Of a stretch of DNA of 64,000 nt, positions 2,319-63,445 are shown piece after piece. A program made the position numbers and the translations under genes. The notes beneath the pieces were generated by a model, which did no database searches, had not been told where the DNA came from, and saw only the letters and a list, made by a program, of their open reading frames with translations. Source of the stretch: a virus; the IMG/VR virus record IMGVR_UViG_3300008448_000070, positions 1-64,000 of that record; one strand, 5' to 3'. Each line of letters begins with the position of its first letter. Position 1 is the stretch's first letter.

Positions 2319-2325
2319 ATAAATA
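2319..2325 (-). promoter_or_regulatory. Recurrent TATTTAT gene-start motif
   Basis: On the gene strand this reads AAAGTATTTATATAA and lies 27 nt before the ATG at 2292. It is almost identical to the motif before the neighbouring fibre gene (AAAGTATTTATGTTAA). Proposed phage promoter element; see findings. Confidence 0.45.
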
Positions 2326-2337
2326 CTTTATTTTAAA

Positions 2338-3066
2338 TTAAAAAAAACCATCTCCACAGTCAATAACCGTCTTGTCAGTCACATATTCAGCCAAAATTAC
2401 ATCTTGTAATTTTATTGATGCAGATATAATTTGCCCGCTAATTTCATTTTTCATAATTTTCATTGCTCCTGATACCACAAGAGATTCAACTGACGGATCT
2501 AAAGTCTGAACTAAAGTTGTTTGACCTTCTACCCTCAAATCCCCTTTTATGGTAACTGAACCCGTGACTTGTAAATCGGATGTTGCACCCCAAAATGAAC
2601 CTGTCTGTTGCCAAACGTTACTATTTGCGGAAGCAACTACATCTGAAATTAATGCAACCTTCTCCTCACTTCCACTCGGACCTGCTATCCAATAATCATT
2701 GATTGAATCCCATAACAATGAACCCGAAATCTTACTTGGATTAGTTGGATCGTTAACATATAGTCCACCAAAAGACCCATTTACACCATTTAGTGTGATT
2801 ATATTATCACCTAAATCTATTGTAGTTGAGTTTACAGTAGTAGTGGTACCCGCAACCGTTAAATTACCTCCAACGATAACATCGCCAGCTGTTTGTAAAC
2901 TACCACTCAAAACAACTGAACCGGATGTATTTAAATTTCTAACATAAATTGATTCAAGATAATTAGATCCTGATCCCCCTAATGAAATGAAGGAGGCAGA
3001 TCCACTTGCATCGAGTGGTATCGTTTGTGTGTCAATCTGTAACCAGTTAATCTGTTGTAATGGCAT
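2338..3066 (-). CDS. Short fibre-like virion protein
   Basis: 242 residues. A short N-terminal segment (MPLQQINWLQID) is followed by beta-strand repeats of the GSLQTAGDVIVGGNLTVAG type, the DNIITLN strand shared with the adjacent fibre, and a QTGSFWGATSDLQVTGS segment. The last is repeated in altered form (QTGSYWSTTNNLKVTGS) in the giant fibre at 31732-39141. This suggests one module family used in several fibres of the same virion. Inferred to be a fibre or fibre-adaptor protein; no enzymatic motif is visible. Confidence 0.7.
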   Translation of the reverse strand: MPLQQINWLQIDTQTIPLDASGSASFISLGGSGSNYLESIYVRNLNTSGSVVLSGSLQTAGDVIVGGNLTVAGTTTTVNSTTIDLGDNIITLNGVNGSFGGLYVNDPTNPSKISGSLLWDSINDYWIAGPSGSEEKVALISDVVASANSNVWQQTGSFWGATSDLQVTGSVTIKGDLRVEGQTTLVQTLDPSVESLVVSGAMKIMKNEISGQIISASIKLQDVILAEYVTDKTVIDCGDGFF

Positions 3067-3087
3067 TTAAAAAGTAAAGTCTTTAAC

Positions 3088-3094
3088 ATAAATA
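3088..3094 (-). promoter_or_regulatory. Recurrent TATTTAT gene-start motif
   Basis: AAAGTATTTATGTTAA on the gene strand, 22 nt before the ATG at 3066. It shares its upstream AAAG with the motif at 2319-2325. Confidence 0.45.
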
Positions 3095-3117
3095 CTTTTT
3101 ATTTGATTACAGATATG

Positions 3118-3147
3118 AAAAAGGGGAACTTTTTTTTAATTCCCCTT
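3118..3147 (-). terminator. Rho-independent-type hairpin after glutaredoxin
   Basis: AAGGGGAA (3121-3128) pairs with TTCCCCTT (3140-3147) across an 11-nt loop. On the minus strand the second arm is followed by TTTC. The first arm overlaps the last codons (Lys-Gly-Asn-stop) of the glutaredoxin gene, so it likely ends the takeover/redox operon before the fibre gene. Confidence 0.65.
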
Positions 3148-3420
3148 ATTTTTTCTTTCATTTATGATTCTAAGAATGTCTTCATCGTTTTCATAATCTA
3201 TACTTGGTACAAAAATATCAGATTCTTCACTTCCTTCATTATATATTAAAACCGTGGGAACATAATCATATCCGACTTGATCAACAACTTGTGACCACAA
3301 TTCTTCATTTGCATCTACATCAATATTAACAAATTCTATAGACGCCCTTTTTAATGTCTTTTTAATTGATGTACAATGTGGACATCCTTTTAATGTGAAT
3401 ATATATATTTTCTCAGACAT
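3136..3420 (-). CDS. Glutaredoxin
   Basis: 94 residues with a beta-strand-CPHC start (Cys13-Pro-His-Cys16) and the cis-proline region (YVPTVLIYN) of the thioredoxin fold. This is the length and active-site pattern of a dithiol glutaredoxin-like protein. Known role of the family: reducing disulfides, for example recycling ribonucleotide reductase. It overlaps the upstream thioredoxin gene by 8 nt, so the two are probably translationally coupled. The phage also carries a class II ribonucleotide reductase at 55095-57356 with a C-terminal redox Cys pair, a possible client. Exact donor and client are inference. Confidence 0.85.
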   Translation of the reverse strand: MSEKIYIFTLKGCPHCTSIKKTLKRASIEFVNIDVDANEELWSQVVDQVGYDYVPTVLIYNEGSEESDIFVPSIDYENDEDILRIINERKNKGN

Positions 3421-3724
3421 TTAAAGAATTTAATAAATCACTATAAACGTTTTTAGGATTTAACCCAACTTTTTTATTAACGAGATTTTTTCCTTCAAAA
3501 ATCATTACAGTTGGGACAGATGTTACACCCATTTGAAGTGCAAATTCCATATTTTCATCTATGTTTATTTTAACAAATTTTACATTTGTACGATTATCTT
3601 CAATTGATTCTAAAACAGGCATCAATGATCTACAGGGACCACACCAAGGTGCCCAAAAATCTACCAATAATTTACTATCCTGATCTTGTAATTGTCTTAA
3701 CTTAACTCCGTCTATGTTTTCCAT
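3413..3724 (-). CDS. Thioredoxin
   Basis: 103 residues, the usual thioredoxin length. It has the classical WCGPC active site (residues 27-31) in the FWAPWCGPC context and the cis-Pro loop TSVPTVMIF. This is a full single-domain thioredoxin, so a cytoplasmic disulfide reductase is expected. It follows the AAA+ gene after 1 nt and overlaps glutaredoxin by 8 nt. T4 encodes a thioredoxin-like protein, while T7 uses host thioredoxin as a polymerase processivity factor; which role applies here cannot be read from sequence. Confidence 0.92.
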   Translation of the reverse strand: MENIDGVKLRQLQDQDSKLLVDFWAPWCGPCRSLMPVLESIEDNRTNVKFVKINIDENMEFALQMGVTSVPTVMIFEGKNLVNKKVGLNPKNVYSDLLNSLNV

Positions 3725-3725
3725 T

Positions 3726-4793
3726 TTAAAAACCTATTTTATTTATCTTATTACTTTTAAATACTTCCACATCTATATTGTAAATGTCGGCCAAACACAT
3801 CCCTTCAAATACGCTTATATTTTTATTTAATTTTTTTAATAATTTTTCAGTATCGGGTAATGAAAGTTTTTCAAATTTGTATTCGGCGATTAACCTACCT
3901 TTTCTTAATAAAGCCTGATCGATTTTTTCTCTCTTCATGTTAAACGTTGCAACAATTTGAATTGAGAGACAGTCCCCTAAAATTCCATCAGTTAAATTTA
4001 AGATATTTGAAACACCAGCAGGTGAACCATTATTTTCTCTATCACCTATTACTCTTTCAGCATCTTCAATAATTAAAATAGAATTTTTATACTCCATCAA
4101 AAAAGGAATTATTGATGGTTCAGACAACATTTCCGCCATAGATGGTGGAATAAATAAAATATCTTTTTCTTTAATTAATGATGTTAGATATTTTATATAA
4201 GATGTTTTACCTGTACCGGGATCACCATGTAATAAAATTATACCCTTACCATTATTTTCATTCAATCTTGAGACTACTGTATTGTGTACTTTGACAAAAT
4301 CTTTACCATAATTTAATTCAAGATCCATTGGTGGGGAATATAAATCATAATCTTCTGTGTCTAAGTGACCCATATCACTTTTAACAAGTTTAATACTTGC
4401 CTTTTTCTTTTGTTTCTCAAATTTCTTAAATGTATCTAATAATTCTTTTAGATATTCTTTACCTATTTGTAAATTATAATAAATTTCAACTTGAACTAAA
4501 TTATCTTTAACATTATCTAAATTATTGTTTACTATAATTAAAAACTCTTTTTTAAAATTCTCATATAGTATTTGAGATGAATCATCTCTTCTATTTTTAC
4601 TAAAAATTTTTGCAACCTCAATAAAACCTAACTCTTCGATTTTTTTCACAACCTTAGGATCATAGTTAACCCTGATGTCAGTGTATTTTGATGGAATAAA
4701 ATCAAATTTTATTACAAAATATTGTTCAGCAGGAATTTGATGTCCATACGTTGTATCATACAACATATAATGATCTGGTATTTTTCTACTCAT
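3726..4793 (-). CDS. AAA+ ATPase with C-terminal Ile-Gly-Phe
   Basis: 355 residues. Residues 1 to about 170 form a non-ATPase domain without a recognised family. The AAA+ core follows with Walker A GDPGTGKT (190-197), Walker B ILIIEDAE (239-246), a sensor-1-like VATFN, and an arginine-rich segment (LLRKGRLI) of BCS1/proteasomal-ATPase type. The last residues are NKINKIGF. An Ile-Gly-Phe sequence is the ClpP-docking signature of ClpX-type unfoldases, and this genome encodes a ClpP. However, no aromatic pore loop is seen (the loop reads IPPSMAEML), so a remodelling ATPase unrelated to ClpP is equally possible. It lies 1 nt upstream of thioredoxin. Confidence 0.85.
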   Translation of the reverse strand: MSRKIPDHYMLYDTTYGHQIPAEQYFVIKFDFIPSKYTDIRVNYDPKVVKKIEELGFIEVAKIFSKNRRDDSSQILYENFKKEFLIIVNNNLDNVKDNLVQVEIYYNLQIGKEYLKELLDTFKKFEKQKKKASIKLVKSDMGHLDTEDYDLYSPPMDLELNYGKDFVKVHNTVVSRLNENNGKGIILLHGDPGTGKTSYIKYLTSLIKEKDILFIPPSMAEMLSEPSIIPFLMEYKNSILIIEDAERVIGDRENNGSPAGVSNILNLTDGILGDCLSIQIVATFNMKREKIDQALLRKGRLIAEYKFEKLSLPDTEKLLKKLNKNISVFEGMCLADIYNIDVEVFKSNKINKIGF

Positions 4794-4818
4794 AAATCAA
4801 AAATAACTAAATTTTATT

Positions 4819-5115: not shown

Positions 5116-5116
5116 T

Positions 5117-5638: not shown

Positions 5639-5663
5639 ATCATTATTTTTTATAAATATTTTA

Positions 5664-6500: not shown

Positions 6501-6551
6501 TATTAACTATATTATTGAAATAATATAATTAAAAAAAATCAAAAAAAGAAA

Positions 6552-6965
6552 TCAATCGTATCTCTTTGTTTTTCTATTAAATTTTTCTTTATACACCTTA
6601 TTTTCAATTTCCCATGGACCCTTATTACCATGTTCATTTACCATTTCTCTGAACTGTTTTTCATCATAATACTTACATTGTTCGGGGTATATATTTCCAA
6701 TCCCATAGTACAACATTTTTGGGAATTTTGAGGTTCTGCCGTTAGAATAGTCATATATATTTTCTTCATCTTCACACCATGCATGAGTAAATCTGTACCC
6801 GCTTAATTTTCCATGACCAGATACTATCCCATGGACTAATTTTATATTTTCAATTTTATTTGTAAACGCATTATTGAACATTAAATCAAATGCAGCATCA
6901 AAACAATCACCACCATCCGGTAGATCTTTTTTTGACATCTCATTTATAATCTGCATAATTTTCAT
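6552..6965 (-). CDS. Small Cys-His-Asp protein, possible papain-like hydrolase
   Basis: 137 residues. The sequence contains GGDCFDAAFDLM (Cys21 at the start of a helix), then LVHGIVSGHG, FTHAWCEDE (His61 on a strand) and IYDYSNG (Asp72). Cys at a helix N-terminus followed by His and Asp on strands is the triad order of papain-like/NlpC-type folds. The pattern D-C..A...LM / LVHG / HAW.E / D.SNG and the C-terminal GPWE resemble an uncharacterised family I recall in other phages and bacteria. No signal peptide, so it should act in the cytoplasm. The enzymatic role is inference. A TATTTAT motif lies 4 nt before the ATG. Confidence 0.72.
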   Translation of the reverse strand: MKIMQIINEMSKKDLPDGGDCFDAAFDLMFNNAFTNKIENIKLVHGIVSGHGKLSGYRFTHAWCEDEENIYDYSNGRTSKFPKMLYYGIGNIYPEQCKYYDEKQFREMVNEHGNKGPWEIENKVYKEKFNRKTKRYD

Positions 6966-6969
6966 ATTG

Positions 6970-6976
6970 ATAAATA
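6970..6976 (-). promoter_or_regulatory. Recurrent TATTTAT gene-start motif
   Basis: Gene strand TTCATATTTATCAAT immediately before the ATG at 6965. It lies in the 35-bp divergent region shared with the plus-strand gene starting at 7001. Confidence 0.4.
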
Positions 6977-7000
6977 TGAAAAAATGGTATATATTCTATT

Positions 7001-7153
7001 ATGGCATGTTCAAGTTGTAAAAAAAAGGAGACTTTTAAAAACGAAATTAAAGAAACGGGTGATTTAGTATCCAAAAAAATTGTTTGGTTTGCAATTATTT
7101 GGTCGATTTTGGGGTTGTATGGTTTGTATTCTTTGGTAACCAAATTTATATGA
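7001..7153 (+). CDS. 50-aa membrane protein with N-terminal CxxC
   Basis: A short ORF on the plus strand: ATG at 7001, TGA at 7151-7153. The product starts MACSSCKKKE, continues with a charged stretch, and ends with one hydrophobic helix (about residues 27-45, IVWFAIIWSILGLYGLYSLV). A Cys-x-x-Cys on the side opposite the membrane could bind metal or form a disulfide. Its stop overlaps the next start as ATGA, which supports both genes being real. Role unknown. Confidence 0.7.
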   Translation: MACSSCKKKETFKNEIKETGDLVSKKIVWFAIIWSILGLYGLYSLVTKFI

Positions 7154-8005: not shown

Positions 8006-8192
8006 ATCCTAATATAATAAGTATTTTATCTAATATAGATATTTTCTTTTTTGGTTTAGGTGAGAACATTTTAGATTTATCTAAAGACTTAATCTCCTCA
8101 ATCAACTGATTCTTGTGGTTCGTCAGATCGATCTTGTCCTTCTCCATCTCCCGTTTCAACCAATCTGATGCCTGTTGTATCCTTTTGTCCAT
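7989..8192 (-). CDS. Small basic protein with hydrophobic C-terminus
   Basis: 67 residues: a charged helical N-terminal part, a basic linker (SPKPKKK) and a C-terminal hydrophobic helix (ISILDKILIILGYG) that could be amphipathic or tail-anchoring. The first 95 nt lie in another frame inside the 3' end of the gene at 8098-8553, unusually large for this genome. An internal ATG at 8147 would shorten but not remove the overlap. The gene is plausible rather than certain. Confidence 0.55.
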   Translation of the reverse strand: MDKRIQQASDWLKREMEKDKIDLTNHKNQLIEEIKSLDKSKMFSPKPKKKISILDKILIILGYGKKS

Positions 8193-8553
8193 TTATTGGT
8201 AGTAAATTTATTTCTTTTAAATTTTCTAAAGATTGTTTTTTGAACAACTCTTGTAATTCTTTTACTTTTTGTTGAAATAAAAATTCTTTTTCTTCTTCCT
8301 CTTTATTAACTCTCAATATTTCATTCGCACAAGCAAAAACAACATCATACCCATTTTGTGTTGCATGTGATATTAATGAAATTAAATTAAATTTTTCATT
8401 CTTATCTTGAATTTTAATTGCGATAGAACTGTAAGGTTTTGCAATATTTTCATACTTCCAAGATAATGGTAATTTAATATCTAAACTCACGTTGTCTTGT
8501 ACTTCTCTTAAAGAGTGGAAATAAGGTCTTAATGTTTTTATATTTTCAAACAC
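8098..8553 (-). CDS. Hypothetical protein, GTG start
   Basis: 151 residues, starting with GTG at 8553; an in-frame stop lies three codons upstream, so no longer form is possible. Residues 1-75 look like a compact alpha/beta domain (LPLSWKYENIAKPYSSIAIKI). Next comes a Lys/Glu-rich coiled coil (about 90-125) and an acidic tail (GDGEGQDRSDEPQESVD). Not recognised. The tail region is also read in a second frame by the gene at 7989-8192. Confidence 0.75.
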   Translation of the reverse strand: MFENIKTLRPYFHSLREVQDNVSLDIKLPLSWKYENIAKPYSSIAIKIQDKNEKFNLISLISHATQNGYDVVFACANEILRVNKEEEEKEFLFQQKVKELQELFKKQSLENLKEINLLPINGQKDTTGIRLVETGDGEGQDRSDEPQESVD

Positions 8554-8557
8554 GAAT

Positions 8558-8912: not shown

Positions 8913-8955
8913 ATTAATTTTTTTCAGTTATTAATACTAATATATGAAAAAAATT

Positions 8956-9411: not shown

Positions 9412-9459
9412 ATTCCTTCTATTTTATAATATAAGGATAAAAGAAAATATTAAGAAGAA

Positions 9460-10785
9460 TTACTGAGTTTTTTTATTGTAAACTGCCATATTTTTCATTT
9501 TCTTGATTTCTTCTTCAAGAATTGTTGACAATTTTGTTTTTTCCGATTCGTTTACAACATTAACTTTTTCGGGATCTTTCCAACTATGTCCCCAGCTAAT
9601 TTCAGGTTCAGATTTAATCTTCTTATCTTTTCTTTCCGCCTTATCTGCTAATTTTTTTCCTACGTCACTTTTAACTGCATTTGCATATTCATGTGAATTA
9701 CCCATAAGTGCATCACCCTCTAATGACATTTTTAATCTTTTCTTAAAATTCTCTGATGGATTTTCAATATTTAAATCTTCTAATCCGCCGCCTCTAATGT
9801 CTGAAACAATTTCATCTTCTTTAGATGAATTCTTTCTTGCCATTTTCTCTTTTGCTTTACCAATTTGATGTGGGAACTCAGGATTGTCATTATTTGAAAA
9901 TGAAAGAGCATCTTTAATTTTTGCGGAAACATCACTAATGTTTTTCTTATTTGATGTTTCACTATCTTTTTTTACACGATTGGTTATGTCTAATCCAGGT
10001 ATGGATTCCTTTACCATTTTTTTGATCATTTTGATCATCTCAGTTTCATTCATTCTAACAACTTTTTTCTTAGATTCCATTTTAGAACCATATCCACATT
10101 CATTACACATTCCCTCTTCGTTCATTGACCCACCACATTCGTTACAAACATGTTTAGATTCTTCAACTTCTTTTTCACCTGATTCATCACTTTGTGTATC
10201 GGCATCAGATAACCATTGATCAAACTCACTTTCTTTTGTCTCAACTTCTTTTTTATTACCTTTATTTTTTAACATCATTAAAAAATCTGATTTAGTTAAC
10301 TTACCATCTTTATTTTTATCTAATTCAGTTTGTCCGCCATGTAATTTTTCCATCATGTCTTTATCACCACATTCATTACAATCTTCTTCATTTTCATCTA
10401 CGTCAGATGTGTCGATATATTCTTTGTTACCTAAATTAAATTTCTCACCTTTAGGTGTATCTTTTAATGCTTTAGTAAATGTATTACCTTCCATTGAATC
10501 TTCTTCTTCAGAAAGTTCATCATTCATTTCATCTAATTTATCTATCATATCATCATGAGATTCATATATACCTTTTTCAATAATTAACTCACCATCATTC
10601 TTATCTTTGTAACGTGGTAAAGCTTCCTCAGCTTCTTCTTGTGTATTGAAACTTGCGAGAGGTATTCCTTCACATTTAATGTGATATACTTCTTTTTTTG
10701 AACCTTCAGATTCTTGAATTATTTTCTTTTTTACTTCCTTAAAAATTAAGTCAGTTACGTTTTTATTTAAATCTTTCGTTTTCAT
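9460..10785 (-). CDS. Acidic protein with EF-hand and zinc-ribbon motifs
   Basis: 441 residues from the ATG at 10785 (a TTG two codons upstream is less likely, because the TATTTAT motif lies at 10791-10797). The protein is very acidic. It contains CNECG near residue 140, then an EF-hand loop DKNKDGKLTKSD with ligands at positions 1, 3, 5, 9 and 12, followed by FLMML. Further on is a zinc ribbon CNECGGSMNEEGMCNECGY. The remainder is low-complexity Lys/Glu with a short helix MNETEMIKMIKKMVKE. Calcium and zinc binding are inferred from motifs. Its position before other acidic proteins suggests a virion or assembly protein. Confidence 0.72.
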   Translation of the reverse strand: MKTKDLNKNVTDLIFKEVKKKIIQESEGSKKEVYHIKCEGIPLASFNTQEEAEEALPRYKDKNDGELIIEKGIYESHDDMIDKLDEMNDELSEEEDSMEGNTFTKALKDTPKGEKFNLGNKEYIDTSDVDENEEDCNECGDKDMMEKLHGGQTELDKNKDGKLTKSDFLMMLKNKGNKKEVETKESEFDQWLSDADTQSDESGEKEVEESKHVCNECGGSMNEEGMCNECGYGSKMESKKKVVRMNETEMIKMIKKMVKESIPGLDITNRVKKDSETSNKKNISDVSAKIKDALSFSNNDNPEFPHQIGKAKEKMARKNSSKEDEIVSDIRGGGLEDLNIENPSENFKKRLKMSLEGDALMGNSHEYANAVKSDVGKKLADKAERKDKKIKSEPEISWGHSWKDPEKVNVVNESEKTKLSTILEEEIKKMKNMAVYNKKTQ

Positions 10786-11629
10786 ATTCAATAAATATCT
10801 TGTTTATTTCATTTAATACGAGTTTTTCTATTTCCCTATAAGGTAATTTTAACTCATCAGATGTCTCTTTTATATATATTTGTATTTCTTTATTTTCAGA
10901 AATGAATTCCAATGCTCCGGTGTTACCTTGATTACAATAAGGAAATTTTTTACATTTTTCTTTAATCTTAACATAGATACCCTGAGGTCCACCATACTTG
11001 GGAAAATTCTTATCTTTTACGGCTCTACCTTTATAAATGGATTTTGGACCTTCGATACTCAAAGGATTTTTTCGACCTTTAGTCGTTTTTCCGAAAAGAG
11101 GTACATCAAATTGACCTGAAGAGGATGCGTCCATTGCCTCATCAATTTCTTTTTCCTCATTTAATTTTGAATTATGGATTTTATATATATCTCTTTTTTT
11201 AATCACATCACCTGAAAATGCACCCTCAAAGGAACCTGAGGAACTCGCATCAGTCGCCTCTTTTGTTTCTATTTTTTTTAACTTATCATAATATTTTGGG
11301 TCTTCCCACAAATGGTCCATAGCAATTTCTTTTGCCTTTTCTTTATCATCTGTATGTTCCATCTCAACCTTCATACCCATATGTAATTGTTTCCTTAAAG
11401 AGTCCATCATATTTTTAATATGATAATAACCTTTGGCGTCATGTTTTTTGGATATTTGAACTAATGATTTGTTATCCGCCAAACCACCTTCAATTTCTTC
11501 TGTTTCGTTAACTTTCTTTTTTCCTTGACAATGCGCCCTTTGACTAAACCCCTTTGGATTATTACAATCAATTGATTTCTTATATTTTTCTAACCATTTT
11601 TCGTTAGTTTCTGTTTCGATTTTTTTCAT
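10763..11629 (-). CDS. Virion-type protein with DUF5661-like segment
   Basis: 288 residues. An N-terminal DCNNPKGFSQRAHCQGKKK motif is a two-Cys element I recall in structural proteins of marine T4-like phages. A segment MGMKVEMEHTDDKEKAKEIAMDHLWEDPKYY resembles the DUF5661 family (GxxVExEHTxDxxxAxxIAxDHLxEDPxYY). Two copies of a DASSSG(S/Q)F motif follow (EATDASSSGSF and EAMDASSSGQF), and then a basic GPQGIYVKIKEKCKKFPYC. The C-terminal helix overlaps the EF-hand gene by 23 nt. Inferred: capsid-associated or packaged protein. Confidence 0.7.
   Translation of the reverse strand: MKKIETETNEKWLEKYKKSIDCNNPKGFSQRAHCQGKKKVNETEEIEGGLADNKSLVQISKKHDAKGYYHIKNMMDSLRKQLHMGMKVEMEHTDDKEKAKEIAMDHLWEDPKYYDKLKKIETKEATDASSSGSFEGAFSGDVIKKRDIYKIHNSKLNEEKEIDEAMDASSSGQFDVPLFGKTTKGRKNPLSIEGPKSIYKGRAVKDKNFPKYGGPQGIYVKIKEKCKKFPYCNQGNTGALEFISENKEIQIYIKETSDELKLPYREIEKLVLNEINKIFIEYENERFK
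10791..10797 (-). promoter_or_regulatory. Recurrent TATTTAT gene-start motif
   Basis: AGATATTTATTGAAT directly before the ATG at 10785. It favours that ATG over the upstream TTG at 10791. Confidence 0.4.
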
Positions 11630-11868
11630 TATCTAACCGATTTTAATGCACTTTCCCAGAAAGATTTTCTTTGCCAAAGTGTTTTGAATAATTCTACCAC
11701 AACTTTGGTTGATAAATCAATTATTTTGTCATCAATTTTTTTTGTTCCGAGTTCATCTTGTATAATTTTGATAACAATTTTATGAGCCTGAGTTGTCTCC
11801 ATAAAATTGTTTATTTCTTTTTTTACAATTTTTTCGATTTCTCTTTTATCTTGTTCTGTAAATGACAT
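11629..11868 (-). CDS. Small helical protein, 79 aa
   Basis: Not recognised. Highly helical with alternating charges (EQDKREIEKIVKKEINNFM) and a C-terminal segment LWQRKSFWESALKSV of a type seen in small conserved proteins of T4-like phages from marine samples. The start ATG shares one base with the upstream stop (TAATG), and the gene overlaps the next one by 1 nt, so it is in a tightly coupled cluster 13002-9460. Confidence 0.72.
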   Translation of the reverse strand: MSFTEQDKREIEKIVKKEINNFMETTQAHKIVIKIIQDELGTKKIDDKIIDLSTKVVVELFKTLWQRKSFWESALKSVR

Positions 11869-12410
11869 TATATATTATTCTTTCTACTGTCGATTATTGA
11901 TTCAAAAGTTGTTTTGAATGTCTCTTCAAATTTTACTAATTTATCTAAAACTTGTCCAACTTCATTTTCTAATTTCATCATTTCCGCATTAACATATACA
12001 CCAGAATCTTTACCTGCGATGAATACAAAACTTATATCCTCATCGGATAATTTACCATCTAATCTAACTTGATCTTGATTTATTGTTAAACCTGGTTCAA
12101 AATCTACAATTTGTGAAACTTGTTGTTTGAAGTTATCCAATAGGTCTGATATTGATTTCTTTTGTTCATCTGTCAAATCCATATCCGCCTCGTCATTTGA
12201 TATCATTTTAACATCCACATCATTGATCGCAGTAATGTTGTCTTTTTGTCCACTGTCTCCTGTTTCCTTATTAGAATCCATATCAACACCAAATTCAGTG
12301 TCTTCTAATAGTTTATTTGCTTTTTTTGATTGATGTGATTCATTTAACTTTCTCAATGTGTTCAACATTGTTTTTGTCTGATCGTATGCTATGACTTTTC
12401 TCTTATCCAT
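11868..12410 (-). CDS. Hypothetical protein, 180 aa
   Basis: Not recognised. The N-terminal helix (MLNTLRKLNESHQSKKANKLL) is followed by an acidic linker and then a domain with beta-strand pattern (ISFVFIAGKDSGVYVNAEMMKL) and a C-terminal helix. It overlaps the amidase stop by 8 nt and ends at TAATG shared with the next gene. A structural or assembly role is inferred from context only. Confidence 0.72.
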   Translation of the reverse strand: MDKRKVIAYDQTKTMLNTLRKLNESHQSKKANKLLEDTEFGVDMDSNKETGDSGQKDNITAINDVDVKMISNDEADMDLTDEQKKSISDLLDNFKQQVSQIVDFEPGLTINQDQVRLDGKLSDEDISFVFIAGKDSGVYVNAEMMKLENEVGQVLDKLVKFEETFKTTFESIIDSRKNNI

Positions 12411-14519: not shown

Positions 14520-14810
14520 TTACTTTAATAATTCTTTTTGTAAATTAGTAATGTCTTCATCGATTTGTGTTTGTCTTTGTACATCTAAAATTTTTCGATC
14601 AGTTGCCTGAATCATCCTTTTTTCAGATTTAAGACCTTCGATTTGAAGAATTAAACCTAATTCTTTTTTTGTATAAGTGGAATCCTTAATTTCTTTTATT
14701 TCATTTTTAATTTTTGTAATTTCTCTACTATCTGAACAACCTTTGAAAAAGGTTAATAATATGATTACAAAAACAATAATTGTAAAATTTTTTTCAATGA
14801 ATTGTTTCAT
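14520..14810 (-). CDS. Small membrane-anchored coiled-coil protein
   Basis: 96 residues: an N-terminal hydrophobic helix (FTIIVFVIILLTFF) followed by KGCSDSR and a long Lys/Glu coiled coil. The Cys after the hydrophobic stretch recalls a lipoprotein, but the residues before it (FFKGC) do not fit a good lipobox. The topology (single anchor plus coiled coil) is also that of an inner-membrane spanin. Role unassigned. Confidence 0.7.
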   Translation of the reverse strand: MKQFIEKNFTIIVFVIILLTFFKGCSDSREITKIKNEIKEIKDSTYTKKELGLILQIEGLKSEKRMIQATDRKILDVQRQTQIDEDITNLQKELLK

Positions 14811-14825: not shown

Positions 14826-15638
14826 TTAATATAAATAGTTAGTTAGACCAAAACTCTCGTTTCTCAACTTCTTAATCGCCTTGTCCCTTAATTGTCTTAT
14901 ACGTTCTTTTGTACATCCAAATTCTTCACCTAAATCCTCAAGGTTCGATTCAATACCCGTAAGACCATAATATTTTTCAATGATTATTTTTTCTCTTTCA
15001 TCCAACACACTCAGCATGTAATGAACTTTTCTTTTAATTTCTTCAGGGGTATTCAGTATTGCATCGGGACTCTCAACGTTGTTATTTGGGATCACATCAA
15101 TTAATTGGTCACCGTCCTCATTAATTTCTTTACTTAAACCTATACAATAAGGTAAATTAGTATCAAAATGTGCGTCGTCTTGATCAAAGAAAAATCTATC
15201 TTCATCGACCTTTTCATTCTTCTTGTTTTTTTGTGACTCTTGAACCAAATTTGATGGTATTCTTATGGTTCTTGAGTTCTCGTTCAATGATGCCATTATG
15301 GATTGTTTAATCCACCATACGGCATACGAAATGAATTTTAACCCACTTGTTGGGTCAAACCTTTCAGCTGCTTTCATTAGGCCTATGTTACCTTCCGATA
15401 TCATGTCTAATAGATCCAACCCTTGATTTTGATACATTTTTGCAACTGCAATGACGAACCTTAAATTACCCCTCACAAGTTCATCGTATAAATCTTTCTT
15501 TTCCTTCTTTGTGATTTCAGGATTTCTTAAAAGATTAAAAATTTCTTCTTGTCTGTCGTGAGTGATTACAGGGATTTTACGGAGATCTTTAATGTAGCTC
15601 TGGATTTCCTCTACATTTGTGATAATAGATTTTTTCAT
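14826..15638 (-). CDS. RNA polymerase sigma-70 family factor
   Basis: 270 residues from the ATG at 15638 (MKKSIITNVEEIQ). The open frame continues to 15689, but its extra residues are atypical and overlap the upstream gene. Regions seen: 1.2 (IQSYIKDLRKIPVITHDRQEEIF), 2.1-2.4 (LVRGNLRFVIAVAKMYQNQGL, SEGNIGLMKAAERFDPTSG, FISYAVWWIKQSIMASL, TIRIPSNL), a region 3 spacer, and region 4 (LDEREKIIIEKYYGL and an HTH GEEFGCTKERIRQLRDKAIKKLR). Region 1.1 is absent. It resembles a primary/group-2 sigma more than T4 gp55. Likely directs RNA polymerase to phage promoters, perhaps the TATTTAT element. Confidence 0.92.
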   Translation of the reverse strand: MKKSIITNVEEIQSYIKDLRKIPVITHDRQEEIFNLLRNPEITKKEKKDLYDELVRGNLRFVIAVAKMYQNQGLDLLDMISEGNIGLMKAAERFDPTSGLKFISYAVWWIKQSIMASLNENSRTIRIPSNLVQESQKNKKNEKVDEDRFFFDQDDAHFDTNLPYCIGLSKEINEDGDQLIDVIPNNNVESPDAILNTPEEIKRKVHYMLSVLDEREKIIIEKYYGLTGIESNLEDLGEEFGCTKERIRQLRDKAIKKLRNESFGLTNYLY

Positions 15639-16126: not shown

Positions 16127-16780
16127 TTATTTCTTTTTTAATTCGATCTTCCAATAAACACCTCCGCCGAAATATGGGCTTAAGGTACCATTTACACCGT
16201 CAACTGTTCTATTTGTGACACCACCCATAACTTTATAAATTTTCTCAGATTTTGTTTTATACATAAGTCCTATTCCGACATTATTAACTAAATCAGGTGG
16301 GTTAAAAGATGATTCAAATCCAAAATATAGTAAATTTTTTGGTGGTAAAATAATCTTAACTGTGTCCCTAACAATTTTTTGTTTTAACTTACTTGTAAAT
16401 GATCTACCGAGAATCCTATTGTTAGAAATCGTATCGTATAATGTTATTGTTCCCACATTATTGGGTAATTCTAAAATATCTTTCTTAAATTGTCTATTCT
16501 CTGAAAATAATTTCACAATTGCCTGTGTGTCAACAACTTGATTTACAGGGACTTCAATTGTTTTTTCAACCCTTACTTCTACAGGTACTTCTACCGGTAC
16601 CTCGACTTCCACTTCTACCTCAACCGTATCGTGAACGGGAAAAGGAACAGTATCTATTTGTGATATTTCAATAGTTTTAGTTCTAATTGGTATGCACCCT
16701 TTTGGATTTAATAATATCAAAATTATTAATACTATTAATGATAATATTGTTATATTTTTATAATCAAAATATTTTTTCAT
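16127..16780 (-). CDS. Membrane-anchored protein with EV-repeat stalk
   Basis: 217 residues: a single N-terminal transmembrane helix (ITILSLIVLIILILL), then an alternating Val-Glu/Val-Pro stalk (VEVEVEVEVPVEVPVEV) and a C-terminal domain of alternating beta-strands with Gly and aromatic residues (LLYFGFESSF, VGIGLMYKT, YFGGGVYWKIEL) resembling outer-membrane hairpins. A periplasm-spanning topology is inferred. It is followed at once by the spanin-like pair upstream, so it may belong to the envelope-disruption set. The EV stalk recalls the repeat in the protein at 21785-22321. Confidence 0.7.
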   Translation of the reverse strand: MKKYFDYKNITILSLIVLIILILLNPKGCIPIRTKTIEISQIDTVPFPVHDTVEVEVEVEVPVEVPVEVRVEKTIEVPVNQVVDTQAIVKLFSENRQFKKDILELPNNVGTITLYDTISNNRILGRSFTSKLKQKIVRDTVKIILPPKNLLYFGFESSFNPPDLVNNVGIGLMYKTKSEKIYKVMGGVTNRTVDGVNGTLSPYFGGGVYWKIELKKK

Positions 16781-17473: not shown

Positions 17474-17480
17474 ATAAATA
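17474..17480 (-). promoter_or_regulatory. Recurrent TATTTAT gene-start motif
   Basis: TTCATATTTATTATAAAAG before the ATG at 17460, immediately after the clpP terminator hairpin. This fits a new transcription unit. Confidence 0.45.
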
Positions 17481-17514: not shown

Positions 17515-18189
17515 TTATGATTTTCTTACTACAATTTCATCTATAATTCCATAATCTAACGCCTCATGACACCCCATCCAAAAATCTCTTGTGGCGTCTG
17601 TCATAACCTGTTCTTTGGTTTTTCCACAATATTTTCCCAATAGTTCGAATAGTCTGTCATTTTTTCTTCTCCACCACTTCATAGTAATTTCGGCGTCCTG
17701 AATATTACCCATCGCACCCCCCGAAGACTGGTGTAACATGATTTCAGAATCCTCCATCGCACCTCTTTTACCTTTTGTACCTGCACCTAAAAGGATTGAT
17801 CCCATGGATGCTGCCATTCCTGTACAAATTGTTCTAATATCGGAGTGTACGTAATCCATAACATTTACCATAGATAAACCTGATTTTACGGATCCACCAG
17901 GACTGTCTATGTGCATTGTGATGTCATTATGATCTATACTATCAAGATACAATAACTGTGCCTGTACTACTGATGACATATAATCATTAACTTCCCCAAC
18001 CAAAACTAAAATTCTTTCCATCATCAAACGTGAAAATACGTCCATAACCGTCACATTCATTTGTCTTTCTTCTAAGATATAAGGAGTTAAACTGTTTTCA
18101 ATCCTTTTATTGTAGTAGTCCAATGTTAATGAACTAACACCTTTGTCTTTTGCGTATAACCCAAAATCTTTAAACTGATTAGCGTTCAT
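17515..18189 (-). CDS. clpP: ClpP-type serine protease
   Basis: 224 residues, close to cellular ClpP. Catalytic Ser128 in GMAASMGS, His153 in MLHQSSGGAMG and Asp202 in TRDFWM; the spacings 25 and 49 equal those of E. coli ClpP (97, 122, 171). The handle helix and HIDSPGGS strand are present. The enzyme looks intact and cellular in type rather than like the diverged ClpP-fold head-maturation proteases. Without an unfoldase it cleaves only short peptides, so it must work with a host ClpX/ClpC or a phage ATPase. A Bacteroidota-type promoter precedes it and a hairpin follows it, making a single-gene unit. Confidence 0.92.
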   Translation of the reverse strand: MNANQFKDFGLYAKDKGVSSLTLDYYNKRIENSLTPYILEERQMNVTVMDVFSRLMMERILVLVGEVNDYMSSVVQAQLLYLDSIDHNDITMHIDSPGGSVKSGLSMVNVMDYVHSDIRTICTGMAASMGSILLGAGTKGKRGAMEDSEIMLHQSSGGAMGNIQDAEITMKWWRRKNDRLFELLGKYCGKTKEQVMTDATRDFWMGCHEALDYGIIDEIVVRKS

Positions 18190-18211: not shown

Positions 18212-18243
18212 CAAATATATAAAAAAAAACGAGAATTCAAAAA
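18212..18243 (-). promoter_or_regulatory. Bacteroidota-type promoter of clpP
   Basis: On the minus strand TTTTTG (18243-18238) is followed by an 18-nt spacer and TATATTTG (18219-18212), matching the Bacteroidota consensus TTTG / TAnnTTTG (usual spacing about 19). Transcription would start about 16 nt before the clpP ATG. It is the only clear host-type promoter I found here, so clpP may be an early gene. Confidence 0.6.
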
Positions 18244-18257: not shown

Positions 18258-18264
18258 TATTTAT
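18258..18264 (+). promoter_or_regulatory. Recurrent TATTTAT gene-start motif (plus strand)
   Basis: GAAATATTTATAAAT in front of the GTG at 18269. This is the only plus-strand gene with the motif in the same gene-strand orientation. Confidence 0.4.
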
Positions 18265-24914: not shown

Positions 24915-24947
24915 AAAAAAAATGGGGGAGAACACCACCTCTCCCCC
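24915..24947 (-). terminator. Strong rho-independent terminator before primase
   Basis: Minus-strand GGGGGAGA (24947-24940) pairs with TCTCCCCC (24931-24924) across an 8-nt loop, followed by A and eight T (24922-24915). It ends 28 nt before the primase ATG, so it either ends the RuvC transcript or acts as an attenuator for primase. Confidence 0.85.
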
Positions 24948-24990
24948 TACCAACTAAACGCAGATTTTAACATCTACGTCCCGTCTCCAT
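24915..24990 (-). ncRNA. Possible leader RNA/attenuator: micro-ORF, hairpin and terminator
   Basis: A TATTTATTA motif (24993-24999) lies 2 nt before an ATG at 24990. The ATG opens a seven-codon frame, Met-Glu-Thr-Gly-Arg-Arg-Cys-stop. The following RNA can form a hairpin (24979-24972 with 24965-24958) that needs one G-U pair and is complete only on the minus strand. The terminator at 24947-24915 comes next. Order motif, peptide, hairpin, terminator, then primase resembles a leader-attenuator or a short independent RNA of about 75 nt. Not matched to a known RNA family. Confidence 0.4.
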
Positions 24991-24992
24991 TA

Positions 24993-24999
24993 ATAAATA
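24993..24999 (-). promoter_or_regulatory. Recurrent TATTTAT motif before leader
   Basis: ATTATATTTATTA followed at once by ATG (24990). Same motif and spacing as before protein genes, although no long gene follows. Confidence 0.4.
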
Positions 25000-25649: not shown

Positions 25650-25656
25650 ATAAATA
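25650..25656 (-). promoter_or_regulatory. Recurrent TATTTAT gene-start motif
   Basis: TTATTATTTATATATTG, 10 nt before the ATG at 25639. Confidence 0.4.
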
Positions 25657-27862: not shown

Positions 27863-27869
27863 ATAAATA
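27863..27869 (-). promoter_or_regulatory. Recurrent TATTTAT gene-start motif
   Basis: TAAAATATTTATAAGAT directly before the ATG at 27857. Confidence 0.42.
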
Positions 27870-31480: not shown

Positions 31481-31487
31481 ATAAATA
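31481..31487 (-). promoter_or_regulatory. Recurrent TATTTAT gene-start motif
   Basis: TTGTATTTATTATATC directly before the ATG at 31474. Confidence 0.42.
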
Positions 31488-39160: not shown

Positions 39161-39167
39161 ATAAATA
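39161..39167 (-). promoter_or_regulatory. Recurrent TATTTAT gene-start motif
   Basis: AAAATATTTATAATTAATTC, 19 nt before the ATG of the giant fibre at 39141. Confidence 0.45.
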
Positions 39168-44527: not shown

Positions 44528-44534
44528 ATAAATA
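44528..44534 (-). promoter_or_regulatory. Recurrent TATTTAT gene-start motif
   Basis: TTATATTTATTAATAAAAG before the ATG at 44515. Confidence 0.45.
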
Positions 44535-44540
44535 TAATTT

Positions 44541-45680
44541 TTATTGTTTTTTAATTTTAAAATATCCATTTCCGTATATATCAAGTTCACCTATGTTGTC
44601 AATTTCACCTAATCTAAAATTTTTCTCCATGACACCCTGTTTTCCTCTCTCAACAAAAATGTCAGAATAAATTGTTGGGTCATCAACAAATCCTATAAAG
44701 TGTTCATTTCTTGTTATGACATAGTTTACTACCTCCTCTTTAGTGAAACCAGATGTATGACCTGTAATCATGGTATATCCGTCAGAATAGTCTCTATAAC
44801 TTAGTGTATCTATTGTATACCCTGTATACTTTACCACACCTGTAGAACCCGTCACACTACCAGATGTTAGAACTTGGGTATATCCTGTACTTCCATATTT
44901 TTTTAATTCATTTAATCTACTTTTTCCAAAAGAAACATATGTGAACTCAGTATTTCCTGTGTTATTGGTATAATCTAAATTATTAATATAATTTTGTGAA
45001 CCTGTTGTTCCTGTTGTATATGGAATTGTAAATCCTGAAAATGTTCCTAATGGATTTTGGATAGTACCATCAAATTTTGGAAACACAATGTGTTTACTAA
45101 CTTTTTGTTTGATCCATGGTGCATCTAAAGATATTGTAACAGTATATCCTGTTGTTCCAACATAGGTATACGTATGTGAAGTTGACGGTAACCCTGTTCC
45201 TAAAACACCACTATTAATTGGAAAATTTGAAGATGTTGTGTTGTCACCCCAATCAATTGTGAATGTTTGTTCAACTATTGTTCTAAGTTTCTCAGGATTG
45301 GTTGTTCCGTAAATTGTTAATACATTATTATTTTGTGTGTATGAAAAATTAACTATTTGATCAACTTGTTCAATATCACCATCAAAACCAACCATAACAC
45401 CCATCTCATCTACAGTACTTTCTAATGGTAATAATATTTCATAATCATTTTGAATTGGCCCTGTATATGTGTTCCATTGTGTTCCATTCCATTTATAATA
45501 ACCCGTTGGTAAACTACCTGTAACATTTTTAACAATGGTCCCAACACTTGGCTCTAAATTTGTTGTACCCGTCCAACTGACAAGGTTTTTTAATGCATCA
45601 ATCCAGTATTTTTCTGTTAGTGAATACAGATTTACATCATGTATAACTTTTTTGACTATATGGTATCTATTTCTTTTCAT
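44541..45680 (-). CDS. Virion protein with PKD-like domain
   Basis: 379 residues. A central segment FTIDWGDNTTSSNFP followed by SHTYTYVGTTGYTVTISLDAPW is the PKD/Ig-like signature (WGDG....HTY...G.YTVTL). N-terminal part starts with a basic helix and contains YYKWNGTQWNTYTG, a carbohydrate-module-like strand. Start and upstream stop abut at 45680. Inferred: baseplate- or tail-decorating protein; PKD domains usually mediate protein or sugar contacts. Confidence 0.74.
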   Translation of the reverse strand: MKRNRYHIVKKVIHDVNLYSLTEKYWIDALKNLVSWTGTTNLEPSVGTIVKNVTGSLPTGYYKWNGTQWNTYTGPIQNDYEILLPLESTVDEMGVMVGFDGDIEQVDQIVNFSYTQNNNVLTIYGTTNPEKLRTIVEQTFTIDWGDNTTSSNFPINSGVLGTGLPSTSHTYTYVGTTGYTVTISLDAPWIKQKVSKHIVFPKFDGTIQNPLGTFSGFTIPYTTGTTGSQNYINNLDYTNNTGNTEFTYVSFGKSRLNELKKYGSTGYTQVLTSGSVTGSTGVVKYTGYTIDTLSYRDYSDGYTMITGHTSGFTKEEVVNYVITRNEHFIGFVDDPTIYSDIFVERGKQGVMEKNFRLGEIDNIGELDIYGNGYFKIKKQ

Positions 45681-52483: not shown

Positions 52484-52490
52484 ATAAATA
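52484..52490 (-). promoter_or_regulatory. Recurrent TATTTAT gene-start motif
   Basis: TTTCTATTTATTATAAGA directly before the ATG at 52476. It overlaps an imperfect AGAAAA/TTTTCT hairpin (52490-52510) that may end the upstream gp6 transcript. Confidence 0.42.
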
Positions 52491-54824: not shown

Positions 54825-54831
54825 ATAAATA
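54825..54831 (-). promoter_or_regulatory. Recurrent TATTTAT gene-start motif
   Basis: CTTTATATTTATTAAT directly before the gp25 ATG at 54820, downstream of the hairpin at 54866-54897. Confidence 0.45.
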
Positions 54832-54865
54832 TAAAGATTAGAAAAATGGTAATAAATAAAATAGT

Positions 54866-57356: not shown

Positions 57357-57373
57357 TTTGTTTATTTTATTTT

Positions 57374-58741: not shown

Positions 58742-58759
58742 AATAAATTTATATATATT

Positions 58760-60218: not shown

Positions 60219-60234
60219 TAATGTTTATTATAAA

Positions 60235-61209: not shown

Positions 61210-61223
61210 ATTTTTAAAATTTA

Positions 61224-61264
61224 AAGGACACTCTCGAAGACAATATGTCCTTGAAAGTGTCCTT
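61224..61264 (-). terminator. Hairpin between SSB and uvsX
   Basis: AAGGACACT (61224-61232) pairs with AGTGTCCTT (61256-61264) across a 23-nt loop that contains a third copy of TGTCCTT. The U-tract on the minus strand is weak (TTTAAATTTT). It may attenuate so that SSB is made in excess over UvsX, as needed for a gp32-type protein. Confidence 0.6.
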
Positions 61265-61270
61265 GATTAA

Positions 61271-62116: not shown

Positions 62117-62167
62117 AAAATTGAAATTTAAATTAATAATAAGTTATAGATATAATATACATAAAAA

Positions 62168-62191
62168 AACCCGGAAAGAAAATTCCGGGTT
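62168..62191 (-). terminator. Strong terminator before the SSB operon
   Basis: AACCCGGAA (62168-62176) pairs with TTCCGGGTT (62183-62191), 9 bp with a 6-nt loop; on the minus strand the stem ends in TTTTTTT. It ends the transcript with the Dps-like gene. Confidence 0.85.
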
Positions 62192-62212
62192 ACAAATTTT
62201 TTAAAAATATTT

Positions 62213-62584
62213 TTACTCTAAGGTTAATAGATATTTTAATTTTTGAACTGCACCTAATAACTCATCTCTTAAATTTAAAAGATTGGTATCCTTAGGATCT
62301 ATTTGATCTGTTAATTGAACTAAAGCACCACATATGGTTTCGGCCATTTGAGATGGTTTAGCCTCGGATAAGTTAATTAAGTTTATAACTTTTGTTTCAT
62401 CATCCAAAACAAATCTTCCGTATTGACCCATAGCTTGTTCAATAAATTCATCCATTAAATCTTCAATAGTTGATCTAATATCTGCAAATGCTTCATGTCT
62501 CGCAAAACCTTTAGTTTGCCAATGAAATACTTTTAATTGAGCGTGTAACCCTAATAGTAAATTTACGTTAGAATTTAAATTCAT
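62213..62584 (-). CDS. Dps/ferritin-like protein (DUF5856 type)
   Basis: 123 residues, all helical. LLLGLHAQLKVFHWQTKGFARHEAFADIRSTIEDLMDEFIEQ has the Dps-like pattern H......HW.T.G...H......(D/E)..DE that builds the inter-subunit ferroxidase site (His14, His21, His30 and acidic residues 34-46). It is shorter than bacterial Dps (about 160), lacking the last helix. Could protect DNA from oxidants or simply be a small virion-linked helical bundle. It overlaps the upstream Pro-rich gene by 17 nt. Confidence 0.75.
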   Translation of the reverse strand: MNLNSNVNLLLGLHAQLKVFHWQTKGFARHEAFADIRSTIEDLMDEFIEQAMGQYGRFVLDDETKVINLINLSEAKPSQMAETICGALVQLTDQIDPKDTNLLNLRDELLGAVQKLKYLLTLE

Positions 62585-63218
62585 CTTTTTCTAATTCGGG
62601 ATTAAATGTTTGTGTTATGGTTTTTGAATAGTTTTCAACATCATCTTTTGTTAATACGTATTCATTTTTACCGGTCATTTGCATTTCGCCTTGCTTTTGT
62701 GCAAAAAATTCTTGAGGTTTTTGGTTAAATGGATAAGAATCCAATGATCTCAATTCAAGTTTTTCTTGTGGTGTATGGGGTTTCATATCTTGAACCTTAG
62801 ATCCCAATTCGTCTATTTTAGCTATAACTGAATCCATTTGACCCAATTTAGCTTCTAAATCATCTAATTTAGAAAACACCGCATCCATCTGACTTAAAAC
62901 AGTTCCGTGTTCTTGTTTATTATCTTCGATATCCTTTTTAATACTTTTAGTCATATTAACTAAATCAGTAATATCTATTTCTTCGGTATCTGAAGGTGTG
63001 GTTTCACCTAAAGATGATGGAGGGGTATCCATTCCACCAGATGGAGGTGGTGGTGGGGGTGTATCTAATCCTCCGGTATCCGCCGCTGCGTCTGTTGGTT
63101 CACCACCAACAGGGGGAGGGGGAGGAGGTGCGTCTTGTTCTACTACTAATTTCTTAGTGTAGTTGTTAATTTCCTTATAACGCTGTAATTCTTCGTGTAA
63201 TTTTTTTTCTAAGCTCAT
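62568..63218 (-). CDS. Pro-rich and coiled-coil protein, 216 aa
   Basis: Order: N-terminal helix (LEKKLHEELQRYKEINNYTKKL), a low-complexity APPPPPPVGG...PPPPPPSGG region (about 30-85), an acidic patch, a coiled coil with repeated M(D/S)(A/S)VF/VI-KLDDL segments (about 110-150), and a C-terminal part (LRSLDSYPFNQKPQEFFAQKQG). No family recognised. Looks like an assembly or virion adaptor protein; only the composition supports this. Confidence 0.7.
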   Translation of the reverse strand: MSLEKKLHEELQRYKEINNYTKKLVVEQDAPPPPPPVGGEPTDAAADTGGLDTPPPPPPSGGMDTPPSSLGETTPSDTEEIDITDLVNMTKSIKKDIEDNKQEHGTVLSQMDAVFSKLDDLEAKLGQMDSVIAKIDELGSKVQDMKPHTPQEKLELRSLDSYPFNQKPQEFFAQKQGEMQMTGKNEYVLTKDDVENYSKTITQTFNPELEKDEFKF

Positions 63219-63222
63219 AGTA

Positions 63223-63426
63223 TTAATCTTGTAAAAGTTGTCTACCGTCTTCGGTAATATATTTTTTATTTATTCTTTCCACTATACCATCTTTAGATCT
63301 AATAACATAACATTCACCTGTTTGTAAATCACAAACTTCTTGAGACATACTGTCATTAGAAATAACCTTATATTTCTTAGGATTTAAAAATTGATCCAAA
63401 GAATTATGTATATTTAAGTTACTCAT
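63223..63426 (-). CDS. Small protein, 67 aa
   Basis: Not recognised. N-terminal polar helix followed by a beta segment QEVCDLQTGECYVIRSKDGIVERINKKYI. Two Cys seven residues apart (CDLQTGEC) could form a disulfide or metal site. It is separated by 4 nt from the Pro-rich gene and has a TATTTAT motif 12 nt before its ATG, so it starts that unit. Confidence 0.7.
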   Translation of the reverse strand: MSNLNIHNSLDQFLNPKKYKVISNDSMSQEVCDLQTGECYVIRSKDGIVERINKKYITEDGRQLLQD

Positions 63427-63438
63427 AGTTTTTTTATA

Positions 63439-63445
63439 ATAAATA
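63439..63445 (-). promoter_or_regulatory. Recurrent TATTTAT gene-start motif
   Basis: TTAGATATTTATTATAAAAAAA before the ATG at 63426. Confidence 0.45.

Follow-up and report, generated by a model that had tools for sequence, protein, structure and literature searches.

The window analysed here, a single stretch of viral DNA, comprises 64,000 of the 66,260 bases of IMG/VR virus record IMGVR_UViG_3300008448_000070. Its G+C content is 31.5%, and nearly all of its genes lie on the minus strand. The gene content is T4-like and includes gp25, baseplate wedge, primase, DnaB, UvsX-like, SbcCD-like and RuvC-like proteins. This study concerns the 7-mer TATTTAT, which an earlier note on this DNA had proposed as a promoter element and which is found on the gene strand, no more than 33 nucleotides (nt) upstream, at 16 of the 61 gene starts. 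In total, the minus strand holds 25 copies and the plus strand 9. The sites considered are given below, with their occurrence in related phages.

2319..2325, minus strand: TATTTAT, 26 nt before start 2292 (bactofilin-like repeat region protein); no orthologue start in the fetched loci
3088..3094, minus strand: TATTTAT, 21 nt before start 3066 (structural-protein-like); no orthologue start in the fetched loci
5652..5658, minus strand: TATTTAT, 13 nt before start 5638 (NusG-like); 18/24 distinct orthologue upstreams
6970..6976, minus strand: TATTTAT, 4 nt before start 6965; 4/4 orthologue upstreams; within the called small frame 6940..7143
10791..10797, minus strand: TATTTAT, 5 nt before start 10785; 30/30 orthologue upstreams; within the coding 3' end of 10763..11629
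14831..14837, minus strand: TATTTAT, 20 nt before start 14810; 17/17 orthologue upstreams; within the last codons of the sigma gene
17474..17480, minus strand: TATTTAT, 13 nt before start 17460; 21/24 orthologue upstreams; directly after a hairpin with a T run
18258..18264, plus strand: TATTTAT before an exonuclease-like gene, 4 nt from GTG 18269 and 28 nt from ATG 18293; 4/4 orthologue upstreams
24993..24999, minus strand: TATTTAT before a structured non-coding RNA, not a gene
25650..25656, minus strand: TATTTAT, 10 nt before start 25639 (RuvC-like); kept in only 2/20 orthologue upstreams
27863..27869, minus strand: TATTTAT, 5 nt before start 27857 (725 amino acids, aa); no orthologue start in the fetched loci
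31481..31487, minus strand: TATTTAT, 6 nt before start 31474 (437 aa); no orthologue start in the fetched loci
39161..39167, minus strand: TATTTAT, 19 nt before start 39141 (2469 aa); no orthologue start in the fetched loci
44528..44534, minus strand: TATTTAT, 12 nt before start 44515 (303 aa); 9/9 orthologue upstreams
52484..52490, minus strand: TATTTAT, 7 nt before start 52476 (1389 aa); 32/33 distinct orthologue upstreams, 54/56 in a wider set
54825..54831, minus strand: TATTTAT, 4 nt before start 54820 (gp25 baseplate wedge); 29/29 distinct orthologue upstreams, 60/62 in a wider set
54852..54858, minus strand: second TATTTAT copy of gp25, 31 nt before the start; kept by many orthologues, not all
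63439..63445, minus strand: TATTTAT, 12 nt before start 63426 (67 aa); family motif in 5/5 genomes

Fourteen of the 15 starts listed in the earlier note hold; at the remaining one, 24990, only a 7-codon frame opens, and the motif lies before a structured non-coding RNA instead of a coding start. Starts 5638 (NusG-like) and 14810 are additional to that list. The plus-strand gene at 18269 does carry TATTTAT in gene-strand orientation (18258..18264), as the note had described.

Enrichment and conservation upstream of gene starts

The occurrence of TATTTAT before gene starts is real and far above chance. When the motif positions were shifted along the window, they fell before 0.75 starts on average and before 5 at most, and none of 1272 shifts reached 16; the earlier note's rough expectation of about one chance site is thereby borne out. 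In 40-nt windows, TATTTAT is present in 15 of 60 upstream regions versus 6 of 1528 in-gene windows (9 of 1370 with the first 100 nt of each gene excluded), so the in-gene control suggested by the note also points the expected way. It is the commonest upstream 7-mer of the window (15/60), and third-order Markov simulations (n = 500) gave a mean of 4.7 and a maximum of 12 upstream occurrences. The word ATAAATA occurs in 2 of the 60 upstream windows.

The same pipeline was applied to other phages, with gene calls made by a simple greedy caller, some of whose starts are wrong. TATTTAT is the top-ranked upstream 7-mer in four relatives of 251–311 kb, where it precedes 72/362, 55/346, 54/440 and 55/259 genes, against 0.48–0.88% of in-gene windows. 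Since many of their genes lie on the plus strand and many on the minus strand, the enrichment is not due to strand composition. In one of them, G001, the octamer TATTTATA precedes 55 of 362 genes versus 19 of 362 for the T4 late-promoter octamer TATAAATA. Among the positive controls, T4 yielded ATAAATA/TATAAATA as the first-ranked words and S-PM2 yielded ATAAATA; for HTVC008M, ATAAATAG was the top 8-mer, standing among 7-mers behind ribosome-binding-site-like words. In the cultured Flavobacterium phage immuto (NC_055915; host Flavobacterium sp. LMO8), TATTTATA is the top 8-mer (23/216) and precedes the terminase, portal, sheath and tube genes, with TATTTAT second to fourth among 7-mers. The signal of Mel-JY01 is weaker, TATTTAT being found upstream of 21 of 225 genes versus 2.07% in-gene, and its top 8-mer is ATATTTAT (19/225).

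Further upstream words were recorded in some of these phages. Immuto has enriched words of the types ATAATTAA/TAATTAAA, CAATAATT and TATATTTAGGTA, which suggests further promoter classes. In Rhodothermus phage RM378, the top upstream word is TATTTAA instead of TATTTAT (33 of 149 genes, 40-nt windows); 11 TATTTAA sites lie exactly 6 nt before the start codon, and no gp55-like protein was found by profile. This word may be a related late promoter with leaderless spacing.

Conservation was assessed in loci of relatives obtained by scans around the window sigma factor (best 80 of 101), gp25 (best 80 of 480) and the 1389-aa gene (69). For a test on distinct upstream sequences, 52 of the 80 gp25 loci and 48 of the 69 loci of the 1389-aa gene were picked by hand, the match covering the first residues of the query and the upstream sequence being present; they yield 29 and 33 distinct upstreams, and TATTTAT is present in all of the former and all but one of the latter. 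Across the window, conservation is nearly all-or-none: motif genes keep TATTTAT in 60/62, 54/56, 9/9, 21/24 and 18/24 orthologue upstreams, and several genes without it show 0/62, 0/45, 0/44 and 0/39. Intermediate counts were obtained for five further genes that are motif-free in the window, namely 3726..4793 (5/27), 8098..8553 (5/37), 16127..16780 (6/30), primase (4/33) and 44541..45680 (4/13). Six motif genes of the window are without a usable orthologue start. Upstream of 9460..10785 (30/30), 11868..12410 (35/36) and 14520..14810 (17/17), the motif lies inside upstream coding sequence, where its retention is indistinguishable from coding conservation; the same confounding applies at starts 6965, 10785 and 14810, at which the motif overlaps a called upstream reading frame. 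Of 154 gene families present in at least three of five genomes, 103 are motif-free in all members and 37 have the motif in at least 60%. An apparent extension of the motif by upstream GTTT, noted for the families of gp25 and the 1389-aa gene, was rejected as a general feature, GTTTNTATTTAT having 0–5 sites per record in eight records.

Gene classes, spacing and an associated non-coding RNA

Using the annotated cultured phage immuto as a guide to homologues, we compared the genes that carry the motif. TATTTAT is found at homologues of terminase (4/4), prohead protease (4/4), portal (3/4), sheath (3/4), tube (3/4), PhoH (3/4) and gp25 (4/5), the G001 sheath and G003 tube genes having an additional copy slightly further upstream. 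It is absent at homologues of SSB (0/3), RecA (0/5), exonuclease (0/5), DnaB (0/5), NrdF (0/2), NrdA (0/2), ThyA (0/2) and primase (0/5). In total, 25 of 42 virion-class genes have the motif versus none of 29 replication-class genes, or 7 of 10 versus 0 of 8 when counted by family (Fisher p 0.004). These counts leave out several motif-bearing rows (the 125626-type gene, low coverage, 4/4; head completion, 2/2; three low-coverage structural rows; and an SbcC-like partial match with 11% coverage) and retain a low-coverage G001 capsid row as a miss. In immuto itself, TATTTAT lies at most 60 nt upstream of 7 of 29 hand-listed virion-class genes plus PhoH, and of none of 17 replication and metabolism genes; many of the remaining virion genes stand close behind a neighbour. 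The motif thus sits before late virion genes and not before replication genes, as for promoters of the T4 late type.

Other genes are preceded by a second upstream class, TAnnTTTG with an upstream TTTGG and longer gaps. The consensus reported for Bacteroidota sigmaA is TAnnTTTG at -7 with an upstream TTTG (PMC9723704). The word TATTTAT does not fit TAnnTTTG, and both elements occur together at only 9 genes of the four relatives. G001 shows an early-type class, ATTTGG-N-GTATATTTGT, before many genes, which fits the Bacteroidota sigmaA consensus. In the window, one example serves as a contrast; the gene behind it has TAnnTTTG in 32 of 43 orthologue upstreams.

18212..18243, minus strand: host-type promoter TTTTTG-N18-TATATTTG before the ClpP-type protease gene 17515..18189

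Because of this sigmaA-type class, the lack of a Shine-Dalgarno-like sequence before starts and the description of moraphages discussed below, the hosts are probably mostly Bacteroidota.

The distance from motif end to start codon was counted in the four related genomes: 4 sites lie at 0–3 nt, 92 at 4–7, 13 at 8–10, 50 at 11–14, 62 at 15–20 and 52 at 21–40. The distribution is bimodal, with peaks at 4–7 and 11–20 nt, and none of eight comparison 7-mers has an equally sharp edge at 4, a milder form being seen for AATATTT, which can overlap the motif. The genomes are not independent of one another, being related; among the 37 families, the median gap is 4–7 nt in 15, 7.5–8 in 4, 11–20 in 13 and above 30 in 5. 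Gaps are mostly 10–33 nt in immuto and 13–44 nt in Mel-JY01; in T4, TATAAATA lies 13–52 nt before the start codon. Among the 113 genes of the 11–20 nt class (those of the window counted too), 58 are shown to have true leaders by an in-frame stop that separates motif and ATG, and 9 have a near-cognate codon in frame at 4–7 nt. Leaderless genes are described as marked by a TA-rich signal some 10 bp ahead of the start codon (PMC3160421), and phage transcripts are often leaderless according to a remark in PMC5312081. The spacing suggests leaderless or very short-leader mRNAs.

One motif copy stands before a non-coding RNA of about 75 nt.

24917..24991, minus strand: non-coding RNA upstream of primase with two covarying hairpins, the second followed by a terminator-like T run

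Upstream of primase, the core pattern was found in 21 of 33 regions (from the window and 32 relatives) and not in 12, some of which, such as L013, appear similar by eye. The RNA also occurs at L014, L009, L029, L044, L041, L045, L088, L078, L080 and other loci. Eighteen of the 21 sequences were aligned, L024 (a near-duplicate), L054 and L068 (both partly alike) being left out and L086 re-cut. Compensatory change is seen in 15 of 16 pairs, 90.6% of cells pair, none of 500 shuffles reaches any of the observed measures, and the loop of the second hairpin contains an invariant TGGTGT. A model built from the 18 RNAs matches five of eight records (one at E 0.099), not including G003, immuto and the partial contig G009. 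An Rfam scan of the window gave no match at gathering thresholds, and in the RNA region only two far sub-threshold matches on the opposite strand. In sequence terms, TATTTAT, RNA and terminator form one unit.

Candidate sigma factor and competing explanations

We consider it likely that TATTTAT(A) is the late promoter of a T4-related phage lineage, a variant of TATAAATA read by a gp55-like sigma factor; the identity of this factor, the start site, late timing and leaderless translation are all inferred from the patterns described here. A phage sigma homologous to gp55 would join the host RNA polymerase and open TATTTATA, with no need for a -35 element. TATTTAT(A) would act as a -10-like element in normal sense orientation, retaining A-12 and A-8 and changing A-10/A-9 to T. 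RNA would start about six bases after the 7-mer, which would place the start codon of the 4–7 nt class within a base or two of +1 and make its mRNAs leaderless, and would give the 11–20 nt class a leader of about 5–14 nt. The remaining genes would use host sigmaA-type promoters. Of the earlier note's proposal, the parts that are supported are a phage-specific promoter, mostly late genes and very short leaders; the assignment of its reader to the sigma factor encoded in the window is not.

14826..15638, minus strand: sigma70-type sigma factor gene, regions 2 and 4

That this sigma70-type factor reads the promoter has some grounds, as it is present in the window and in all four relatives with regions 2 and 4 kept. 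Yet immuto and Mel-JY01, both motif-bearing, gave neither a region-4 match nor a tblastn match to the window sigma, and a sigma with region 4 would be expected to use a -35 element, of which none is conserved. It is probably not the reader, and we regard this explanation as unlikely.

Since the window sigma was not found in immuto and Mel-JY01, the factor common to the motif-bearing phages is a gp55-like one. Each of the four relatives encodes a protein of about 232 aa with a sub-threshold sigma region-2 match. A profile of four such sequences, searched in 10 records, matches four, namely T4 (gp55, E 2.7e-4), immuto (1.4e-18; record positions 78174-78872), Mel-JY01 (4e-14) and LR756508 (6e-14), and gave no match in the window's incomplete record, RM378, S-PM2, Ma-LMM01, Lak-A2 or HTVC008M. 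The phrog_234 profile finds gp55 of S-PM2 and HTVC008M, and none in Ma-LMM01. Comparison with T4-type gp55 by hhalign gave 86.7% (E 4e-6) with 34 sequences and 95.8% (E 7e-9 over 117 columns) with 5 diverse sequences, and a second structure comparison placed gp55 first (Z 10.8, 3.1 Å, 102 residues). By these profile comparisons, region 2 of the protein is homologous to that of gp55. Over 14,167 bases, the window and contig IMGVR_UViG_3300021599_001992 share 99.95% identity, and the non-matching part of this contig holds a gp55-like gene. The window's own virus thus has such a gene, outside the window, and the 232-aa gp55-like sigma is the likely reader. This sigma (e.g. L329:3001-3693) has an extra conserved C-terminal helical part (FNKNLILLSLREMTSLSTKEIR...).

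Several observations weigh against a gp55-read late promoter. The homology to gp55 is remote: phrog_234 matches are weak in the four relatives (E 9e-5 to 3e-3) and immuto (0.008), and the search also matches in 7 of 14 control genomes; a PDB sequence search had gp55 at the top with E 0.013, an unrelated protein coming second at 0.017. The predicted structure is of modest quality (predicted local distance difference test 70.3, predicted template modelling score 0.44), and a Foldseek search of PDB returned nothing at E ≤ 0.001, gp55 standing at rank 41. In the structure comparison that placed gp55 first, the Z values of other sigma factors are within 1 of that of gp55, and values this high can arise by chance when a model is mostly helical. 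The clamp search with PF02916 gave no match in the relatives or immuto, and misses S-PM2 too; PF02747, tried as a clamp profile, was discarded as the wrong family, with no match to T4 itself. Among virion genes, the motif is mostly missing at major capsid (0/4), gp6 (0/5) and hub (1/4); for major capsid, read-through from the 125626-type gene directly before it is possible. The RuvC-like gene has the motif in the window and in only 2 of 20 orthologue upstreams. TATTTAT directly precedes the RNA in only 8 of 18 copies; most of the other 10 are preceded by a TATATTTAA-like word. The recorded host of Mel-JY01 is a cyanobacterium. Finally, LR756508, which has a gp55-like gene, gave no TATTTAT signal in its first 200 kb (2/272).

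No TATAAATA signal was seen in the first 200 kb of LR756508, a huge phage, either; a third variant may serve as late promoter in this phage.

A translation-initiation or mRNA-stability element in the leader would account for a motif very near start codons with family-conserved gaps, in a phylum in which Shine-Dalgarno sites are reported to be unused (PMC3155529). Such an element would not be expected before a non-coding RNA with a T run, and the gaps vary between families and reach the mostly longer range of immuto. Moreover, among 513 genes of the four relatives that follow a neighbour on the same strand with fewer than 10 nt between them, only 13 have the motif. Such genes need translation as well, although they have less free sequence. 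We judge this explanation very improbable.

That TATTTAT is an AT-rich by-product of host sigmaA promoters, terminators or chance is scarcely credible: AT-rich genomes and the position of some copies directly behind hairpin-T-run terminators speak for it, but the shift and Markov controls argue against chance, the TAnnTTTG promoters are a separate, longer-gapped class sharing only those 9 genes, and ATAAATA is much weaker upstream.

T4-type promoters fired antisense from the same sites were also rejected, as the motif lies at a family-conserved distance from the gene downstream of it and, where genomes have numerous genes on either strand, still points along the gene strand. No conserved -35 partner was seen; in G001, the motif flanks are near background, and the strongest upstream column is the base adjoining the motif.

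For the gp55-read promoter, a more specific proposal is evenly balanced between right and wrong in our estimation: that throughout this lineage the gp55 promoter was re-tuned to TATTTATA and became joined to the start codon, with many virion mRNAs leaderless, and that in part of the lineage it also drives the new RNA. If true, the promoter rather than a ribosome-binding site would set the translation start in a phylum without Shine-Dalgarno sites, and leaderless mRNAs would offer a route to structural proteins in such hosts. In Flavobacterium psychrophilum, leaderless mRNAs are reported at only 5.5% (PMC9723704). More broadly, the motif provides a predicted late-gene map, from sequence alone, for abundant uncultured aquatic jumbo phages, and cultured immuto is a phage in which the prediction is testable. 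A two-base promoter change together with changes at DNA-contacting gp55 positions would make sigma–promoter co-evolution directly testable.

Comparison with the T4 late promoter and other known systems

T4 late transcription depends on the sigma factor gp55, the clamp gp45 and the coactivator gp33. The octamers TATAAATA and TATTTATA differ at two central bases only and share the frame TAT-NN-ATA. The earlier note had cautioned that the motif is the reverse complement of the T4 element and hence not that element read forward. The relation is exact, but because TAT..ATA is palindromic, the reverse complement of TATAAATA equals a same-orientation change of the central AA to TT, that is, a forward two-base variant.

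Like the T4 late promoter, the element is a -10-like octamer with no -35, stands before virion genes and occurs in genomes with a gp55-type region-2 sigma; T4 late promoters are described as having no -35 element (PMC7892883). Unlike it, the element has TT in place of the central AA, and most gaps are 4–20 nt versus 13–52 nt in T4, where TATAAATA occupies -13 to -6 relative to the start site (PMC1524935). The gp55-like protein has a longer, different C-terminal part where T4 gp55 has its clamp-binding tail, and by eye the C-terminal parts do not align with T4. Because TATTTATA does not match the defining octamer TATAAATA, it is classified as a variant of the T4 late promoter, not a member.

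The pockets of gp55 take A-12 (Y97), A-9 (N13, H95) and A-8 (T99) (PMC7892883); in the T4 register, TATTTATA retains A-12 and A-8 and changes A-9. In a 15-row alignment of 9 of 34 lineage sequences with T4, HTVC008M, S-PM2, immuto, Mel-JY01 and LR756508, Y97 is invariant in all 15 rows, and N13 and T99 are present only in the rows of the three TATAAATA-type phages, the remaining 12 having replacements. H95 is replaced by F also in S-PM2 and HTVC008M and does not track the motif. The N13 column is alignment-sensitive, hhalign pairing the residues differently, and LR756508, with no TATTTAT signal, shows similar N13/T99 replacements. A pairing of contact-residue changes with the promoter change is suggestive only.

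By description, the relatives resemble moraphages, aquatic jumbo phages of up to 307 kb that are predicted to infect mostly Bacteroidota and that have a core sigma factor along with T4-type virion genes (PMC12619734). The main text of that paper uses the word 'promoter' once, about a homing endonuclease. No TATTTAT/TATTTATA late promoter in print was found among the matches listed by a search lying outside subscription journals and preprints. The Bacteroidota sigmaA promoter TAnnTTTG (PMC9723704) is represented in the same phage genomes as the second class, and differs from TATTTAT in its core, upstream TTTGG, longer gaps and the genes it precedes. A precedent is Aeh1, in which a late promoter of T4 type, CTAAATA, has drifted along with the diverged gp55 of this phage (PMC1524935); the change is at other positions and in another phage group than that of the TATTTAT lineage.

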